The notes beneath the pieces were generated by a model that did no database searches, was not told the DNA's origin, and worked only from the letters and a program-made list of their open reading frames with translations. This document shows positions 1-29,360 of a stretch of 56,122 nucleotides of DNA, piece after piece. The DNA comes from an uncultured Eubacteriales bacterium. GTDB taxonomy: Bacteria > Bacillota > Clostridia > Lachnospirales > Lachnospiraceae. The stretch spans positions 1 through 56,122 of the forward strand of contig CASFAQ010000002.1 in assembly GCA_949292725.1 (NCBI GenBank), given 5' to 3'. The first letter of the stretch is position 1, and every line of letters starts with the position of its first letter. The position numbers and the translations under genes are program-made.

Positions 1-120
1 ACGGTCTTTATTTGCGAGATACTTATAGAAGCCTTGGCGGCTGACCCCAAGCATTCTGCAGTAAAACGAAATTTTCCCGGTAATCCTGCCGTCCTCTGTT
101 TTCAAAGCCAGAAAGATCAT
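1..120 (-). CDS. IS3-family transposase OrfB, N-terminal fragment at window edge
   Basis: The reverse strand from 120 reads MIFLALKTEDGRITGK, then a segment ending SRQGFYKYLANKDR, the usual opening of IS3-family OrfB proteins ahead of the DDE integrase core. The ATG at 120-118 overlaps the OrfA stop in an ATGA arrangement, so it could be translated by coupling. The catalytic DDE residues lie beyond the left edge, so activity cannot be judged. Confidence 0.7.
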   Translation of the reverse strand, partial: MIFLALKTEDGRITGKISFYCRMLGVSRQGFYKYLANKDR

Positions 121-7117: not shown

Positions 7118-8785
7118 AAACGGACACAGGATGTAGTCATTTGCTATGCGGGAGACAGAAGGGGACCTATTTCAATTTTACAGAAGGCTAATTACGATAG
7201 TATTGAAGTGCCTCAATCGGCCTTGGAACTTTCCGGAAGAAGTATGAATAGAGAATATCAGGATAAAATAGTTGGAAAAGTACTTTTACGTTTTGCAAAC
7301 AAAATGTTTCTTCCCTACCCAATCAGAATTGCAGTTACAACTGTAAAGTCTGCAAAATATATCTGGAAAGGACTTGGTTCCGTTTTAAAGGGTAAGATAG
7401 AGGTTGCACTTTTAGATGGAGTAGCAATCGGAGTATCTGTACTTCGCGGCGATATGGAAACGGCAGCTTCTGTGATGTTTTTACTGGATATCGGAGAGAC
7501 ATTAGAAGAATGGACTCATAAGAAATCAGTTGATGATCTGACAAGAAGTATGTCACTAAATATTAGCAAAGTGTGGATGCTGACTGATGGAAAGGAAATT
7601 TTGACAGATACCAGTCAGGTCAGGGCGGGGGATATGGTTGTTACACATATGGGAAATCTGATTCCTTTTGATGGTATCGTTGTAAAAGGTCAGGGAATGG
7701 TCAATCAGTCATCATTGACCGGAGAGTCTTTACCGGTCGAGAAAAAGGAAGGCGGATATGTATATGCCGGGACTGTATTAGAGGAAGGAGAGCTGACCAT
7801 ACAGGTTAAGGTTACATCCGGTGCAACCCGATATGAAAAAATTGTAACAATGATAGAAGAAACAGAGAAACTGAAATCCGGGATGGAAAGCAGGGCAGAA
7901 CATTTGGCTGACAGACTTGTACCATACACACTGCTTGGAACAGGACTGGTTTATCTTCTTACCAGAAATGTAACAAAGGCTTTGGCAGTTTTGATGGTAG
8001 ATTATTCCTGCGCACTAAAACTTGCAATGCCGATCACTGTTCTTGCCGCAATAAAAGAAGCAAACCGGCATCAAATAACTGTAAAAGGCGGTAAATTCTT
8101 AGAACAGATAGCAGAAGCGGATACCATCATATTTGATAAAACCGGGACATTGACGAAAGCGCAGCCAATTGTAGAAAGGGTCATATCTTTTAATGGAGAA
8201 AATCCGGATGAACTGCTTCGTATAGCAGCTTGTCTGGAAGAGCATTTTCCGCACTCTATCGCAAAAGCAGTTGTTAATGCGGCAAAAGAAAAAGGGCTCG
8301 TACATGAGGAAAATCATTCTAAAGTGGAATACATTGTTGCTCATGGTATTTCATCAAGGATAGAAGGTAAGAGAGTGGTAATTGGCAGTTATCATTTTGT
8401 GTTTGAAGATGAAAAATGCACTGTACCTGTTGAAATGGAAGAAACATTCGAAAACCTGCCGGAAGAATGCTCACTACTCTATCTTGCCATGGAAGGGAGA
8501 TTGGCTGCCGTTATCTGTGTTTCTGATCCGGTCAGAGAAGAGGCTTCTGATGTGATTTCGTTACTACATGACCAAGGTTTTACGAAAATTGTTATGATGA
8601 CCGGAGACAGTGAGCGTACAGCGTCTGCTGTTGCGAATAAAATTGGTGTAGATGAATACTATTCTGAGGTTCTCCCAGAGGATAAGGCAGCATTTGTAGA
8701 AAAAGAGCATGGCAAAGGCAGAAAGGTCATTATGATTGGTGACGGAGTAAATGATTCGCCTGCATTGTCAGCTGATAGGACTTAA
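7118..8785 (+). pseudogene. P1B-type heavy-metal ATPase (P1B6/FezB-like), truncated at both ends
   Basis: Metal-pumping ATPase body with TGES (in SSLTGESLPVEKK), the phosphorylation motif DKTGTLTK, HP in EEHFPHSIAKAV, MTGDSERTA and MIGDGVNDSPALS. The transmembrane metal site reads DYSCALKLAMP, the SCA type of the P1B6 group rather than CPC. Homology begins abruptly at about 7121 (in-frame TGA at 7115), so the N-terminal region of roughly 50 residues is missing. It ends right after GVNDSPALSAD, losing the last transmembrane helices where an HD-GYP fragment is joined on. The nearest usable start is GTG 7208. The protein cannot transport in this form. Confidence 0.8.
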
Positions 8786-15453: not shown

Positions 15454-16668
15454 ATGAGAAACCAATATAATAAAACAATTACCGCCTGCTTTGTCGGATA
15501 TGTTGTACAGGCGGTCGTTAACAATTTTGTACCTTTGCTATTTTTACATTTTCAAACCACTTATGAGATCCCTCTTTCTCAGATTACTCTTTTGGTGACC
15601 TTTAATTTTGGAATCCAGCTTTTGATGGATCTCGTGTCCGTTGTATTCGTGGATAAAATCGGCTACCGGGCATCTATGATCCTCGCTCACGCATTAACAG
15701 CTTCAGGGCTTCTTTCTCTCACAATACTTTCGGAGGTTCTTCCGGTTCCGTTCTCAGGTATTTTAATTTCCGTGATGATCTATGCTGTCGGTGGCGGATT
15801 ATTGGAAGTTCTCGTCAGCCCGGTTGTAGAAGCGTGCCCTTCCGATAATAAAGAAAAAGCAATGAGTATGCTGCACTCATTTTACTGCTGGGGACAGGCG
15901 GGGGTTGTGCTTATTTCAACTCTGTTTTTCTTCGTGGCAGGTATCGATAACTGGAAAATTCTCGCAATTGTCTGGGCGCTTCTTCCAGTTTGCAATGCCA
16001 TAGTTTTTGCGAAAGTCCCCATAGCGCCCTTGATTAAAGAAGGGGATTCCGGATTGAAAATCAAGGAATTGTTCCGACTGAAAGTTTTTTGGATTTTATG
16101 TATCATGATGCTTTGCGCCGGCGACAGCGAACAGGCGGTGAGCCAGTGGGCTTCCACCTTTGCCGAAACAGGCCTTGGTATTTCCAAAACACTAGGAGAT
16201 TTAGCGGGTCCAATGGCGTTTGCGGTTTTGATGGGGCTTTCCAGATTATTTTACGGCAAATTAGGGCATCGCATCAATTTAGATCGCTTTATGATTGCCA
16301 GCAGCATCCTGTGTATTTTTTCTTATCTTGGCATTTCTCTTTTGAGACTTCCCTAGCTGAGTTTGATTGCTTGCGCACTTTGCGGCTTGTCTGTAGGCAT
16401 TATGTGGCCGGGGACTTTCAGCAAAGCATCGTCCGCATTGCCAAAGGGCGGGACGGCTATGTTCGCACTGCTTGCCCTTGCGGGTGATCTGGGTTGTTCG
16501 GGAGGCCCAACGCTGGTTGGGATGGTCTCTGATCAAATGGGAAACAGTTTAAAGCTTGGTATTTTGGCCGGCGTAATTTTCCCAATTATACCTTTGGTTG
16601 GGGTCTTCCTCTGCCGAAAGGCAGTAAAGCAAGAACATGATTTTGAAAACAAGAGAGTGAGGTATTGA
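15454..16668 (+). pseudogene. MFS transporter interrupted by one in-frame TAG
   Basis: The frame from 15454 runs through hydrophobic segments of a major facilitator protein, is stopped by TAG at 16354-16356, and continues in the same frame to 16668, giving 404 sense codons in all. The join reads LLRLP-stop-LSLIACALCGLSVG, inside a transmembrane helix; a Trp codon (TGG to TAG) would restore a normal sequence. The first part alone has about 9 of 12 helices. It resembles FucP/sugar-type MFS proteins only loosely. The divergent AraC gene and downstream DUF1349 gene suggest a carbohydrate-uptake operon. Confidence 0.8.
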
Positions 16669-16671
16669 ACG

Positions 16672-17271
16672 ATGGAATTTTTAAAAAGCAGCCCAAAATG
16701 GATAAGGCAACCGAAAGAGGTAAAAATCGACGGCCAGAAGGTAATCGTGACCACAGAAAAGGGCACTGATTTATGGGCACGCACTTATTATGGCTTTCAA
16801 AATGACAATGCCCCGGTATTCCAAATCGAAACAAGCGAAAAGTATTTTTCGTTTATTGTGAAAACAGAATTCGAGAGTTCCTGTCGGTTTGATCAGTGCG
16901 GCGTTGTTATGTATTTGAACAGTGATAACTGGTTTAAGGCTTCTATTGAATATGAAGATGACAAAATTCAAAGGCTCGGAAGCGTCGTAACGAATCACGG
17001 ATATTCTGATTGGGCCACAACAGATATATCCTCAGACATAAAGCATATGTGGTATCGTTTTTCGCGCAGAGAAAGCGATTATTGTATCGAAAACAGTGAA
17101 GACGGAATCCACTACAAGCAAATGCGGATTTTTCATATGTGGGAAGGTTCTGGTAAAATCACTTACGGGATCTACGCTTGCAGTCCGACGGAGGGATCTT
17201 ACCAAGCAACTTTCTCCTCTATGCAGATTACGGATTGTCAATGGAAAAGTGATTCAGATTGGAAAATTTAA
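16672..17271 (+). CDS. DUF1349 concanavalin-like protein
   Basis: A 199-residue protein of the DUF1349 family with a lectin-like jelly-roll fold. It contains the pattern FSFIVKTEFESSCRFDQCGV, then MYLNSDNWFKASIEYEDD and MWYRFSRRESDYCIENSEDG. There is no signal peptide, so it is cytoplasmic. It starts 4 bp after the MFS stop, so it is in that operon. It may act on intracellular sugars; no activity is established. A second DUF1349 gene follows but is cut short. Confidence 0.82.
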   Translation: MEFLKSSPKWIRQPKEVKIDGQKVIVTTEKGTDLWARTYYGFQNDNAPVFQIETSEKYFSFIVKTEFESSCRFDQCGVVMYLNSDNWFKASIEYEDDKIQRLGSVVTNHGYSDWATTDISSDIKHMWYRFSRRESDYCIENSEDGIHYKQMRIFHMWEGSGKITYGIYACSPTEGSYQATFSSMQITDCQWKSDSDWKI

Positions 17272-17292: not shown

Positions 17293-17514
17293 ATGCTGCA
17301 ATTTAAATGGATGAACGAGAGTTCTATAGAAAAAACAGGAGACTGTTGGAAAATAGCCGCGCTCCCTAAAAGTGATTTTTTCTGCAACAATGAAACAGTA
17401 GGCAAAGAAGGAATTACTCCCGCATCGTTAAGCAACGCGCCGTTTTATTACACGGAAGTTTCCGGGGACTTTGTTATGAGAGTAAAAGTTTCGCTCGATT
17501 TTAAGTCCGCCTGC
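17293..17514 (+). pseudogene. Second DUF1349 gene, truncated
   Basis: ATG 17293 with ggag upstream starts a protein resembling DUF1349: FKWMNESSIEKTGDCWKIAA and APFYYTEVSGDFVMRVKVSL. After DFKSACSC the family sequence ends and the frame runs into antisense serine-recombinase sequence, stopping at 17586. About 74 residues of the usual 180-200 remain. The break is at about 17514. Confidence 0.75.
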
Positions 17515-17606
17515 TCCTGCTGGTATTTCCCAAGCATACGGGTAAAGTTGGCTTCGCTGATCTTGCCCGAAATGCTGTCCTCATAGAGCTTGTAAATACC
17601 GATGAA
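17513..17606 (-). pseudogene. Serine recombinase fragment
   Basis: The reverse strand reads FIGIYKLYEDSISGKISEA, then NFTRMLGKYQQEQ. This segment is typical of the middle of large serine recombinases of the Tn4451/TnpX type. Only about 31 codons remain, fused to the broken DUF1349 gene on one side and the IS21 end on the other. It marks a past excision or deletion by a mobile element. Confidence 0.65.
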
Positions 17607-19286: not shown

Positions 19287-20048
19287 ATGAAAAAAAGCAT
19301 ATATACCGTCATCCTTATAATCTTACTCTTTGTGATGGTCTTTAGCGGAGCAAAGATTGTGGGTTATTATGGTGAAGCGTACACACAGAAGAAGATGTAT
19401 GACGAGGTAGCCAAAATGGTTGAATGGAACAATAAGGGTAACACGGGGGCATTGGAGCGGGAAACGGCTTCAATGCTTTCTGCTTATGTAGAGCTTTTTA
19501 ACAGAAATAGTGATGTAGTAGGCTGGATAAAGATTGAGGATACTCCGATAGACTACCCGGTCATGCAGTCGCCTGATGAGCCGGACTTCTATCTGAATCA
19601 CGGATTTGACAGGGAGTATACGGTCTATGGCTGCCCTTATGCGAGTGAAAGCTGTGACGTCCTGAAACCCTCGGACAATATTATCATCTACGGACACCAT
19701 ATGAAGAACGGTTCGATGTTTGCGGGTCTTGATAAGTTTATGGACAAGGAGTTCTGGGAGAAGCATGGAACCTTTCGGTTCGATACATTATATGAAAAAC
19801 AGTCATATGAGATAGTTGCCGTTTTTAAAACGGCGGTGGATACGGGCGAGGAAGATGAATTTGAATATTACCGGTTCGTGGACGCCGGGGATGAGGAAGA
19901 GTTTGATGATTATATAAGGCGGGCGAAGGAACTTGCGCTGTACGATACAGGCATTTCGGCAGTATACGGCGATAAGCTTGTTACTCTTTCGACCTGTGAG
20001 TATTCCGAAAAGAACGGAAGGCTCGTAGTGGTTGCGAAGAAAATATGA
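19287..20048 (+). CDS. srtB: Class B sortase
   Basis: Membrane-anchored cysteine transpeptidase that attaches surface proteins to the cell wall or builds polymers. It has 253 residues. An N-terminal signal-anchor (about residues 5-24) is followed by the class B catalytic domain: W80 in DVVGWIKIEDTPIDYPV, His in IIIYGHHMKNGSMFAGL (137/138), Cys237 in LVTLSTCEYS and Arg245 in NGRLVVV. All three catalytic residues are present. No sortase substrate with a clear C-terminal sorting signal is seen nearby; the broken surface gene at 24821 is the only large cell-surface candidate. Confidence 0.93.
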   Translation: MKKSIYTVILIILLFVMVFSGAKIVGYYGEAYTQKKMYDEVAKMVEWNNKGNTGALERETASMLSAYVELFNRNSDVVGWIKIEDTPIDYPVMQSPDEPDFYLNHGFDREYTVYGCPYASESCDVLKPSDNIIIYGHHMKNGSMFAGLDKFMDKEFWEKHGTFRFDTLYEKQSYEIVAVFKTAVDTGEEDEFEYYRFVDAGDEEEFDDYIRRAKELALYDTGISAVYGDKLVTLSTCEYSEKNGRLVVVAKKI

Positions 20049-24820: not shown

Positions 24821-27448
24821 ATGTATAAAAGGTATATAAGAAAGATAATTATATCATTTATATTGCTATTTGCGATGCTGATCAACAGTATATATCCTCT
24901 GTATAATGATGGCAATGCCATAAAATGGAAAGCGAGTGGCACTACTAAGCAAATAGACATCAAGTACGACATCAGTCTGGCGAAGGACTATGATGCTATA
25001 GAAGAAGACACTCCTTTGTACTACAGTATAGAATATGATGAAGTCCTGGATGGATATTATCGCAGGTATTATGTAAGCACGGCTGACCAGCTTGCCGCTC
25101 GAAATCGTAACGTAACTCTTGAGATAGATGGCAACGGACACAGGCTGTATAGCGGTTATTATGGTGCACCAAAGGTTACCGGGGTAAAGTATAATACAGG
25201 CGCAGCTGCTAATCAAGGAGCAAGCGTTGAGAATACATATTATGAAAACTTCTTGAATCAAGACTATATGTTTTATATTCATGACCTTGTATTCTCCAAA
25301 CAGTATATCGGGCACGAGCAGGGAATGTTCGCTTCCGGTGTACGGTATGCTTATTTTAATAATGTAAACTGGAAGAGTTGTATGGCAGTCGGTGGTTCAT
25401 CGACTGTAATTGTGCTGGGTCATAGTTATGGAAGGTGCTACTTTAAGGATTGCACCATAGATAACAGCTATATCTATGGAAATGCGCACTGTGGACTATT
25501 TGCATCATATAACGAGGGCGCCACTACCTATGATAATGCTTCATATATTGGTGATACAGCTGGTACATATAACGCATATTATTATACAGATATTCCGAAT
25601 GACGTCTCGGAGGTCTACAGGGCATGGAATGGCTATAAAAGCGAACTACATAAAGACGTCAATTTGTACATAATATTTCCTTCCATATATGAGGACTGTG
25701 CAACTGTTAATTCTGAGGTATATGATTATGGAGCCAATCATTCAGGAACCTTTGTGTCCTGTCTGCAGGCCATGATAATATTCAAGAACTGTTTTTCAAA
25801 TTGTAATATCTATGCGAGGACACAGCTGTGAGTATTCATAGGCGCCGTTATCGGAAGCGGTAATGGATTCTATTATCCGCATAACGGAGTGAAAACTTTT
25901 GTTAATTCTTATTTTGAAAACTGCTACACCTCCGGTTCGATAGAAGGAAATTCTAAGCTTGGGGGATTCATAGACATAGTCTTTGACGATACACGTGCAT
26001 ATAATAGTGGCAACTCGAATCGCGGCAAGGCGGTGTTCCGGAACTGCTACTCCACATCCTCGGTTGGAATGCAGTATTCGGGTAGTAATGTGGGCGGATT
26101 TGCAGGTCTTATCGTGGGCAATATACAGGCGGCTGAAGCAACTTCGCATTCACGTCAGCATGTGTTTGAGAACTGCTATGCAGCAGGAGAGGTCGGCGGA
26201 ATCACCACGGACACCTCTACCGGAGATGACAATACTAATTCTATAGGTGGATTTATGGGCTCGTATGTTAATTACAAAAGTGAAGCTGCGGGCAATAATC
26301 CCTCCGTATCTGAAATAATTTCCATAAAAGAACAGAATAATTCCTTAAGTATCGTAAACTGCTATTATGATAAGCAGACTACTGCGATGCGTGAGAGGGA
26401 TGTGTACTATACCAAGACGCTTAGAATGACTACGGCGAGTGCCAAGTCCGCCGTGGGCTGGTATCGAGGCAATGAGTACAGGCTTACCACGCTGATCATA
26501 GAGGCCATAGATGAGGCTAATGTTGCACATGAGATGACTCGTATTGATGTAGAAAATGCCAATAGTGAGTTTGGTTTTTCAGAAGCGGAGTATCAGTATG
26601 ACTTTAAGGGGTACTCTGTCACACAGAATCCGGAGACCAAGGTGTTCTCCGTGGTGGAGAACTAAACATCGACAAAGACATTTAAGATCGAGTCGGCAAC
26701 GGATTATATCGATAATAGCGTTACCAAGTACATACTCTTTAATCTGGAGGCGTCCGATCAGGCTGAATCGTATACTACCATTAATGACAGCCTGCGTGTT
26801 ACCGCCCTGTTCAGGAAGAATACATCCGACGTACAGGCGGAGAAGACGGTATTGCTTAACGAGGCGGACAAGAATTATGAAGTTAACAATGGGGAAGAGT
26901 CGGATGACGCCAATCGTAAAGCGGTGCTTAGCGGTGATGAGCTCACCTACAGGGTCAGGCTGCATAATACCGGTTATATGGATTCGGATACAGTAAATGT
27001 GTATGATGAGGTTCCTGAAAACTGTACTTATATAGAGAATTCCATGAAGATATACAGGCAGAAGATAGCGAATCTTTCGGGCGGTACGATAAGTTATGGA
27101 AAGCCTGAGGAGATGGATCCGACTTCTGATACTACAGTCAGTATGGAGTATAATGATGGTCATCTGTCCTGGAGTATAGCCGGTATACCGCTCAATCATA
27201 TATATTATGTGGAGTATAGGGTTAAAGTAGATACACTGTCGGCGTTCGACCTTAAGAGAACGCTTACCAATGAGGCATACTTGGATTTTGTATCGATTAA
27301 CGGCGATATAGCCGTGGGTGATGATATAAGTAACGAGTTTACCCCGACAGACCTTGATTATCTAAAGGAGCATCTTGTATTCGATATGAAGGTTGATGTC
27401 GACGAAGGAAGTATCGTGCAGGAAACTCACACCCATACGAGAAGGTGA
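24821..27448 (+). pseudogene. Large GLUG-type surface protein broken by two in-frame stops
   Basis: One reading frame extends 876 codons from ATG 24821 to TGA 27446-27448, interrupted by TGA at 25829-25831 and TAA at 26663-26665. It begins with a signal-peptide-like segment (IIISFILLFAMLINSIYPLY). Repeats resembling the GLUG motif follow, with FENCYTSGSIEG, FRNCYSTSSVG...NVGGFAGLI and FENCYAAGEVGG...SIGGFMG. A C-terminal repeat-type domain (DUF11-like) contains GDELTYRVRLHNTGYMDSDT. No sortase signal or membrane anchor is visible at the end (ETHTHTRR). The protein should be exported and adhesin-like; at present only the first 336 codons can be translated normally. Confidence 0.75.
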
Positions 27449-27452
27449 TGTA

Positions 27453-28169
27453 ATGTTTATACATAGAAAATTACGTATGGCATGCGTTCTTTTGCTGACT
27501 GTCGGTATGCTTGTCTGCGGATTTACCATCGCTTATTTTTCAAGCCGTGACGAGGTTACGAATAAGACACGGGCTCATGACGTAAGAATCATTCTTACAG
27601 AACCTGAGTGGCTTGATGTGGGAATCAGCGATGCTGCCGCCATGCAGCCGGGCATGGTTATCGCAAAAGATCCGATGGTATATAATGATGGTGAGGCGGG
27701 CGTCTACGTTCGCATGAAGATTATCATCATATGTAAGGATTCTGAGGGAAATTATACTGAGATAGACAGTAGTGATAAAAGGTATAAGCCTCTTATGGAA
27801 GCGATATGTGTGGATGATGCGGGAGGGAAGCCGTTATTTGATGAGGGCTTAGTATCGTCTATATCCAATGCATCATTTGAATATGACAGTAGTAGCGGAT
27901 GGTTCTACTATAAGTCGGATGGCAATTATACCTCGCTTGCGCCGGGTGCATATACAGCGCCGCTCTTTAGCTCGTTTAGGGTGCCGGTTCTTAAGACGGA
28001 GTATAATAATATATTTGATATGGATTTTCGCATTCAGATAGTGGCACAGGCGGTCTGTCTGCGCCTGTTTTCAGCTGAGGAATTAAAGGATGAGCGGCTG
28101 GTGAGTCTGTCTACCTGTTCGTATCAGTTTGAGGATGCAAGGACTGTTCTTGTGGGATATCTAAGATGA
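27453..28169 (+). CDS. TasA/CalY-like matrix protein with a sortase B C-terminal tail
   Basis: ATG 27453, 4 bp after the surface frame, starts a 238-residue protein. Residues 1-200 follow the TasA/CalY (SipW-dependent) plan: signal segment MACVLLLTVGMLVCGFTIAY, the motif YFSSRDEVTNKT, VRIILTEPEWL, MQPGMVIAKDPMVYNDGEAG. The last 38 residues instead read EERLVSLSTC-like sequence (KDERLVSLSTCSYQFEDART), the active-site end of a class B sortase with Cys222 and Arg230. The sortase histidine and beta-barrel are absent, so it is not a sortase. I infer an in-frame deletion joining a calY-like gene to a former downstream srtB. An expressed fusion cannot be excluded. Confidence 0.75.
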   Translation: MFIHRKLRMACVLLLTVGMLVCGFTIAYFSSRDEVTNKTRAHDVRIILTEPEWLDVGISDAAAMQPGMVIAKDPMVYNDGEAGVYVRMKIIIICKDSEGNYTEIDSSDKRYKPLMEAICVDDAGGKPLFDEGLVSSISNASFEYDSSSGWFYYKSDGNYTSLAPGAYTAPLFSSFRVPVLKTEYNNIFDMDFRIQIVAQAVCLRLFSAEELKDERLVSLSTCSYQFEDARTVLVGYLR

Positions 28170-28241: not shown

Positions 28242-29360
28242 ATGGCGAAGAAGAAGACGAATAGTAAGAAAAACGGCATCATAATTGCGATTGTGATTGG
28301 CGCTCTTGTGGTCATAGCCGCAGTTATTGCGCTTTTTATCATTATTAATAGGAATATCGAGAAGAATCAGTATGTTGAATACGGCGTGCCGCATGATTAT
28401 GAGGAGGACGGATTCATAAAGCTTGGCGAATATAAGGGCATTAGCATGTCGGTTGCGGTCTCTGACGAGGATGTCGAGGAGGAGATAGAGTATGCCCTTG
28501 AGGATGCGGAGAACTATGAGAGACTTACGGGTACGGCTAAGACGGGAGATTATGTGAATATCAATATGGCATGTTTCTATGAGGACGGAACTGCCATTGA
28601 TGATTATACTTATGACAATGAATTCATAACGCTTGGCGACGAGGATTATTTTGCTGAATTTGACACGGAGATAAGCGGTATGAATACCGGTGAGACCAAG
28701 GAGATTACGGTGGCGGTGCCGGCTGATTATGGTGATGAGGTTATAGACGGTATGACGATTAAGTTTAATATCACGCTCAATTATATATGCGGCGATGCGA
28801 TAGAGCAGGAGCTTACGGATGAGTTCGTAACGGAGTATACTGAGGGCGAATGTACGAATGTGGACGGATTTGGCGAGTATATAAGAACGCAGCTCTATAA
28901 TGATAACGTGGATAATCTTACCTACGATCTTCTGACTGAGATAACGGAGAATACTAATGTTAAGAAATATCACCGCGGCGAGCTTAAGAATGCCGAGGAT
29001 GAGACCATTCAGAGTTATCAGAGTTTCGCTGAGATGTCGGGTTATACGGTGGACGAGCTTTTGGAGGCGTTCGGAATGACTGAGGATGATGTGGACGATA
29101 TTGCAAAAGAGGCCGCAGTGGAAAAGATGGTTGTAAAGACTATTGCCGCTAAGGAGAATCTTACTCTTGATGATGAGACTTATAAGCAGATGCTTATGGA
29201 GTCGCTTGAGTATAAGAGTGACGAGGTACAGAATATGACCATAGAGGATATGGAGGAGGAGTACCTGTCCATGAATGAGGTCAATCCGAAGGACGGTATG
29301 CTCTCGGAGTATGTTATGCAGTACGTGCTTAGCTTGTCTAACATAGAAGGCTTGCAGTAA
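28242..29360 (+). CDS. Membrane-anchored trigger-factor-like FKBP prolyl isomerase
   Basis: I chose ATG 28242 because tggagga lies upstream; the frame is open from 28188 without a site. A 372-residue protein: Lys-rich start, one membrane helix (about residues 12-34, IIIAIVIGALVVIAAVIALF), an FKBP-like domain (about 70-190, with GDYVNINMACFYEDGTAIDD and PADYGDEVIDGMTIKFNITL), then a trigger-factor-C-like helical part (about 195-372). It should face outside the membrane as a folding helper for exported proteins. It is strongly acidic. It is followed 19 bp later by a two-component system, suggesting one operon that watches envelope folding. Confidence 0.8.
   Translation: MAKKKTNSKKNGIIIAIVIGALVVIAAVIALFIIINRNIEKNQYVEYGVPHDYEEDGFIKLGEYKGISMSVAVSDEDVEEEIEYALEDAENYERLTGTAKTGDYVNINMACFYEDGTAIDDYTYDNEFITLGDEDYFAEFDTEISGMNTGETKEITVAVPADYGDEVIDGMTIKFNITLNYICGDAIEQELTDEFVTEYTEGECTNVDGFGEYIRTQLYNDNVDNLTYDLLTEITENTNVKKYHRGELKNAEDETIQSYQSFAEMSGYTVDELLEAFGMTEDDVDDIAKEAAVEKMVVKTIAAKENLTLDDETYKQMLMESLEYKSDEVQNMTIEDMEEEYLSMNEVNPKDGMLSEYVMQYVLSLSNIEGLQ

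Follow-up and report, generated by a model that had tools for sequence, protein, structure and literature searches.

The window, a stretch of DNA of 56,122 nucleotides, contains a surface-protein locus in which a gene made of two parts lies between a broken adhesin-like gene and a block of genes conserved in the genus (Table 1). By frame translation, the protein encoded at 27453-28169 ends in ...AQAVCLRLFSAEELKDERLVSLSTCSYQFEDARTVLVGYLR. In a search of 5.8 billion proteins only two relatives were found at E values up to 0.01, the protein itself excluded: P0002, whose similarity covers the first 201 residues, and P0003, whose similarity covers the last 40. The preliminary description of this DNA had seen a matrix part and a sortase tail in a single open frame, and this was confirmed, with no stop codon within the 238 residues.

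Table 1: Features of the fusion gene and of its neighbours in the window.
Feature	Residues	Coordinates	Strand	Remarks
Adhesin-like gene, probable pseudogene of the same surface-protein locus		24821-27448	+	One frame, stops TGA 25829 and TAA 26663
Fusion ORF	1-238	27453-28169	+	238 aa, frame open throughout
TasA/BsaA-like part	1-201	27453-28055	+	P0002, 61% identity over residues 3-201; profile A5; below-cut-off TIGR04090
Predicted N-terminal helix, signal region	3-30		+	Structure model
Junction codons Gln-Ala-Val (CAG GCG GTC)	199-201	28047-28055	+	Common to both parent families
Class B sortase C-terminal end	202-238 and stop	28056-28169	+	A2 match; tail profile 76.5 bits
Cys222	222	codon 28116	+	Aligns with C218 of P0003
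Arg230	230	codon 28140	+	Aligns with R226 of P0003
FKBP/trigger-factor-like gene, start of genus-conserved block, outside the fusion		28242-29360	+	PF00254, E 3.3e-10

The first part resembles the SipW-dependent matrix proteins of the TasA/BsaA type, as had been proposed, up to residue 201. The alignment with P0002 (61% identity) runs from residue 3 of the fusion protein to that point and then stops, and the profile A5, which represents 17 members of the family, matched 27462-28070 with an E value of 6.1e-78. The NCBIfam model TIGR04090 (BsaA family SipW-dependent matrix protein) aligned with residues 14-91 of the fusion (E 7.1e-4) at 19.4 bits, under its curated cut-off of 60, and P0002 was likewise under it with 35.2 bits (E 1e-8). 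With PF12389 the fusion protein obtained 15.6 bits and P0002 20.9 bits, both short of the cut-off of 22.5. The fusion protein as a whole reaches neither curated cut-off, and P0002, which has no sortase tail, fails too. The SipW-type signal peptide model TIGR04088 gave 12.6 bits against 19 at residues 17-38.

In the structure model, the matrix core was predicted with block-mean pLDDT values above 90 for residues 51-180, except for 78 in residues 131-140. When the model was compared with solved structures by Foldseek, the TasA fibre 8aur_A ranked third (E 0.011, TM 0.31). VIA-align gave middling Z values, the best being 7.5, to chains other than TasA; TasA was not named there, which is no evidence against the fold. 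The sequence search of solved structures with the alignment A4 returned a single chance-level match. By comparison with the TasA, CalY and BsaA matrix proteins (TIGR04090, PF12389), the fusion protein appears to share the predicted N-terminal signal region with its AYF-type end and the core through the last strand, which ends in AQAV. Its relatives are mostly encoded near SipW-type signal peptidase genes. It differs in that those proteins keep their native end, where the fusion has a sortase end, and in that no SipW over the cut-off was found here.

Judging from its sequence, the tail is the end of a class B sortase of a subfamily other than that of the SrtB encoded at 19287. This assignment was made because the sortase profile A2 matched 28026-28166 at model positions 194-240 of 241 with an E value of 9.4e-16, and because a profile of sortase ends gave the last 42 residues of the fusion protein 76.5 bits (E 1.3e-23), a profile on which the SrtB at 19287 obtained only 14.8. 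A2 comprised 23 sequences and 241 model positions and was searched over the own genome at E values up to 10, while 46 of the 80 sortases found besides P0003 contributed their ends to the tail profile. The SrtB at 19287, chosen beforehand for comparison, is therefore not the nearest relative: P0003 reached 73.4 bits on the tail profile. From Gln199 on, 34 of 39 residues are identical to P0003 in the pairwise alignment, so that the sortase origin attributed to the last 38 residues stands; their extent had to be corrected to 37 residues, plus the three of the junction which are shared.

The class B sortase P0003 has 234 residues, the last 37 of which lie beyond the shared Val. It scored 150.9 bits with TIGR03064, just below the cut-off of 153.75, and 28.8 bits with the Pfam Sortase model, above the cut-off of 26.6. 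Its residues H123, C218 and R226 are invariant columns in A2, and the spacing between Cys222 and Arg230 of the tail is that of P0003. On the fusion protein, TIGR03064 aligned with its last 22 model positions only (E 0.16), and the tail was not recognised in the Pfam search, which may occur with a fragment of this length. In relation to the P0003 subfamily of class B sortases (TIGR03064), the tail preserves the last 37-40 residues, the LSTC motif and an Arg eight residues past the Cys, but it lacks the first ~195 residues and with them the catalytic His and the greater part of the domain; of the 241 model positions the fusion covers 194-240 alone. Transpeptidase activity would not be expected from the tail, since it is without the His half of the active site. 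A2 had three matches in the own genome, namely C2:19287 (model positions 1-236), C12:9069 (positions 51-236) and the fusion tail. The first two reach position 236 of 241 and look complete, and no N-terminal sortase fragment that could complement the tail was found by this profile search. The pLDDT of the model falls to 69-78 at residues 201-220 and to a mean under 50 at residues 221-238; the alignment A4 used for the model pairs the tail with unrelated ends of family members, and the strand predicted at residues 231-237 means little.

At the join, P0002 reads AAQAVSDYY and P0003 reads REQAVCLSD. In the pairwise alignments the similarity to P0002 stops at Val201 and that to P0003 starts at Gln199, with the consequence that both cover the three junction residues. 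P0002 continues past the join with its own end of 24 residues.

The pairing of both parts appears in a single protein. When a profile of the matrix part was searched against the 5.8 billion proteins, 35 were found, the fusion and P0002 included, and the sortase motif STC occurs in one of them, the fusion itself. An alignment was made of 25 of these, and its 24 members besides the fusion have short variable ends beyond the switch point. No relative of P0002 at E values up to 0.001 was found in the other genomes of the 10 of the genus, and the family profile A5 had matches in 37 of 397 genomes of the family, the own genome counted. No second copy of either parent was found in the own draft genome; a second TasA-like match on contig C12 (E 3.3e-4) was rejected as spurious, being located inside an aminopeptidase-like gene (L038 15619-16683) that was identified by eye. 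Searches with P0003 in 299 genomes of the family and 391 of the class, and with P0005 in 395 relatives, gave distant sortases only, at most 43% identical among the matches listed. No relative was confirmed for P0002 and P0003 in genome contigs, nor for P0002, P0003, A5 and A2 in viral contigs. An origin of the sortase from a mobile element was also considered and rejected: the class B sortases of phages and plasmids were all less than 60% identical to P0003, and the DNA of the tail had no plasmid match. As far as the literature can be judged, mainly from the openings of abstracts together with passages of PMC7395162 and PMC13082335, no TasA-sortase fusion is named in it.

A further aspect is how the parent genes are arranged in relatives. 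We compared the size of the longest contig recorded for each of the 35 matrix-family proteins with those of 81 P0003-related sortases (43-55% identical to P0003). For 7 of the 35 this size was exactly that of one sortase; the contig counts agreed in six of these seven pairs and the sources in all seven. With jittered sizes the expectation was 0.19 matches on average and at most 3 in 5,000 trials, and three near misses (within 5 bases) were not counted among the seven. P0101 and P0026 agree at a longest contig of 2,792 bases and another matrix/sortase pair at 8,481. This evidence is indirect, and on contigs as long as 60,116 bases a match shows no more than a common contig; little would follow from one of 28 or 60 kb by itself, given how widespread class B sortases are among the genomes of the family (266 of 299). 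The longest contigs of P0002 and P0003 themselves differ (193,498 versus 285,891). The matches in contig size point to frequent co-encoding, as separate genes, of this TasA-like family with one group of class B sortases, which would be a testable link between two surface systems.

Apart from the own genome, 36 had matrix-family matches, and DNA stretches of 4.5-19.9 kb each were taken from 23 of them. A SipW/signal-peptidase match was present in 22 of the 23, three of which supplied the profile, and the match in L133 was ~15 kb off. A class B sortase was present in three stretches (L132, L138 and L143), each time downstream of the matrix genes and on the same strand. In L132, two TasA-like genes recognised by the profile, a third (TIGR04090, 42.2 bits against 60), a protein with an xPKTG motif and srtB follow one another on one strand, and this srtB shares 75 of 180 residues with P0003. 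Less similar to P0003 are the sortases of L138 (50 of 192 residues identical) and L143 (50 of 165), where other genes intervene. In G086 a sortase lies just past the fetched stretch, upstream and ~16 kb away. The remaining 20 of the 23 stretches have no sortase near the matrix genes, which counts against a fixed operon; the order of matrix gene and then srtB on the same strand is the one that a deletion would fuse. It was also observed that the xPKTG motif of L132 (3028-4691) stands ahead of a C-terminal hydrophobic segment, so that this protein of a TasA-type locus is a candidate substrate of a sortase.

A comparable neighbourhood has been described in C. perfringens, where, according to the passages seen of PMC7395162, srtB adjoins sipW-bsaA. 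The likeness, as given there, consists in srtB flanking an operon of sipW and a TasA-like gene, and in strain SM101 the sipW/TasA-like operon is naturally disrupted too, in that case by insertion sequences (PMC7395162). The same passages show the differences: the genes are separate and srtB is 5' of sipW. They also report that the BsaA profile and the pellicle were unchanged in a srtB mutant (PMC7395162).

Regarding the surroundings, the pieces of the adhesin-like gene carry a DUF11 domain in the last (E 6.7e-6), a weak Pectate_lyase_5 match in the first (E 0.011) and none in the middle. The middle piece had one relative among 396 other genomes of the family, with residues 19-144 matched; this relative is part of a 1578-aa open frame, which fits the adhesin-like gene having been a single long gene. 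Recoding of the stop codons is not favoured, given that both TGA and TAA occur in frame. Downstream, the FKBP/trigger-factor-like gene has relatives in all 10 genomes of the genus and is followed by a response regulator and a sensor kinase, directly or past one small gene, in 9/9 of the other genomes. Upstream of it, none of these nine has the genes seen here; several arrangements occur, some of them common to two genomes. In this comparison of gene order an overlapping reverse frame of the window stood in for the FKBP gene, whose place was set from the search for its relatives. Because the flanking arrangements differ within the genus while the FKBP block is kept, the surface-protein locus seems to occupy a variable spot.

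The own genome is a 92-contig draft of 1.75 Mb with 94% completeness, the smallest of the 10 in the genus. In this 94%-complete draft no SipW over the curated cut-off was found, the best match to TIGR02228 being 37.6 bits versus 51.85. As controls, five SipW genes of relatives scored 85.9-120.6 bits on the SipW model, and 13 of 14 control genomes gave TIGR02228 matches, with 4 above the cut-off. By eye, two of the three weak matches of the own genome to the SipW model are ordinary signal peptidases and the third is an S24/S26-like protein. A protein of 151 aa at L068 1372-1827 (G000:C24) is, also by eye, S24/S26 signal peptidase-like without the usual membrane segment. Taking into account the stops upstream, the lack of a SipW over the cut-off and the finding of no complementing sortase piece, the locus of the fusion gene looks decayed.

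Read together, the sequences make the two-part gene most likely an ordinary deletion fusion, which very probably arose between the short matching stretches at Gln-Ala-Val. The deletion joining a matrix gene to a lost sortase, one of the two origins proposed beforehand, is supported by these common codons, by the agreeing contig sizes for members of both families, by the separate genes in one relative and by the decayed surroundings. The ancestral locus would have held, in this order, the adhesin, the tasA-like gene, sipW and/or other genes, and srtB, at a variable spot beside the conserved block. Lost with the deletion would be the last part of the matrix gene (24 codons in P0002), whatever genes stood in between, and ~195 codons at the start of srtB, out of about 234; that the reading frame stayed intact would be a one-in-three coincidence. 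In the product the core of the matrix protein would be retained, with no recognisable SipW to process it; because of this absence the product is probably non-functional. Against such a deletion scar count the fused frame without a stop and the well-kept matrix part, which would fit retained function as well, the scarcity of class B sortases near matrix genes (the three stretches of 23, two of them with sortases distant from P0003), and the difference in longest contig between P0002 and P0003. If the deletion is accepted, the gene is a clean example of how a loss within a surface-protein locus can yield a convincing two-domain gene, which annotation could list as a new architecture.

A working protein of a new kind is improbable on the same sequences. 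It would be one in which the matrix subunit gains from the tail a reactive cysteine or an additional strand, whereby the fibre is cross-linked or the subunit pairs with a sortase, and the open frame, the conserved spacing of Cys222 and Arg230 and the complete core, to which aligned relatives add just a short variable end beyond the join, would suit it. We nevertheless consider it unlikely, and the reactive cysteine or complementing strand offered in the preliminary description is not upheld: the pairing occurs once in 35 family proteins, the genome yielded no N-terminal sortase piece, the His half is absent, the adjoining gene is broken, no SipW passes the cut-off, and the model's confidence is low in the last third of the tail and only 69-78 at residues 201-220. 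The circumstances that had been named as speaking against function, a fusion that is unique with separate genes in relatives, were largely encountered, in the one protein of 35 and in L132. Slightly less probable still is that the deletion gave rise to a functional matrix subunit in which the end taken from the sortase would supply a free Cys222 for cross-linking or anchoring of the fibre; if true, it would be a new protein architecture caught at birth.

We give an equally low weight to a misassembly of the draft, by which two genes separate in the organism would have been brought together. Only a single contig, from a 92-contig draft, is known to carry the fusion, but the parents share at the join three residues, about 9-10 bases, and assembler overlaps usually need far more than that. 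Neither parent was found in a second copy in the draft, the frame is kept across the join and the block downstream is typical of the genus, all of which speak for a real fusion. As to a chance resemblance between the tail and unrelated sortases, the short tail does stay under every Pfam and NCBIfam cut-off; this explanation is refuted, with practically no probability left to it, by the identity to P0003 (34 of 39 residues), by the shuffled tail residues, the best of 300 reaching 10.7 bits on the profile where the tail has 76.5, and by the match of E 9.4e-16 in the own genome. Profile comparison likewise contradicts a tail unrelated to sortases, which had been the other ground for abandoning the idea.

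Two other observations were made in the window. A major-facilitator transporter gene at 15454-16665 (MFS_1 in its first part, E 4.8e-20) is broken by an in-frame TAG at 16354. At 17293-17586 there is a second DUF1349 copy, which covers only positions 1-62 of the 179 of the model and adjoins a complete DUF1349 gene at 16672-17271.
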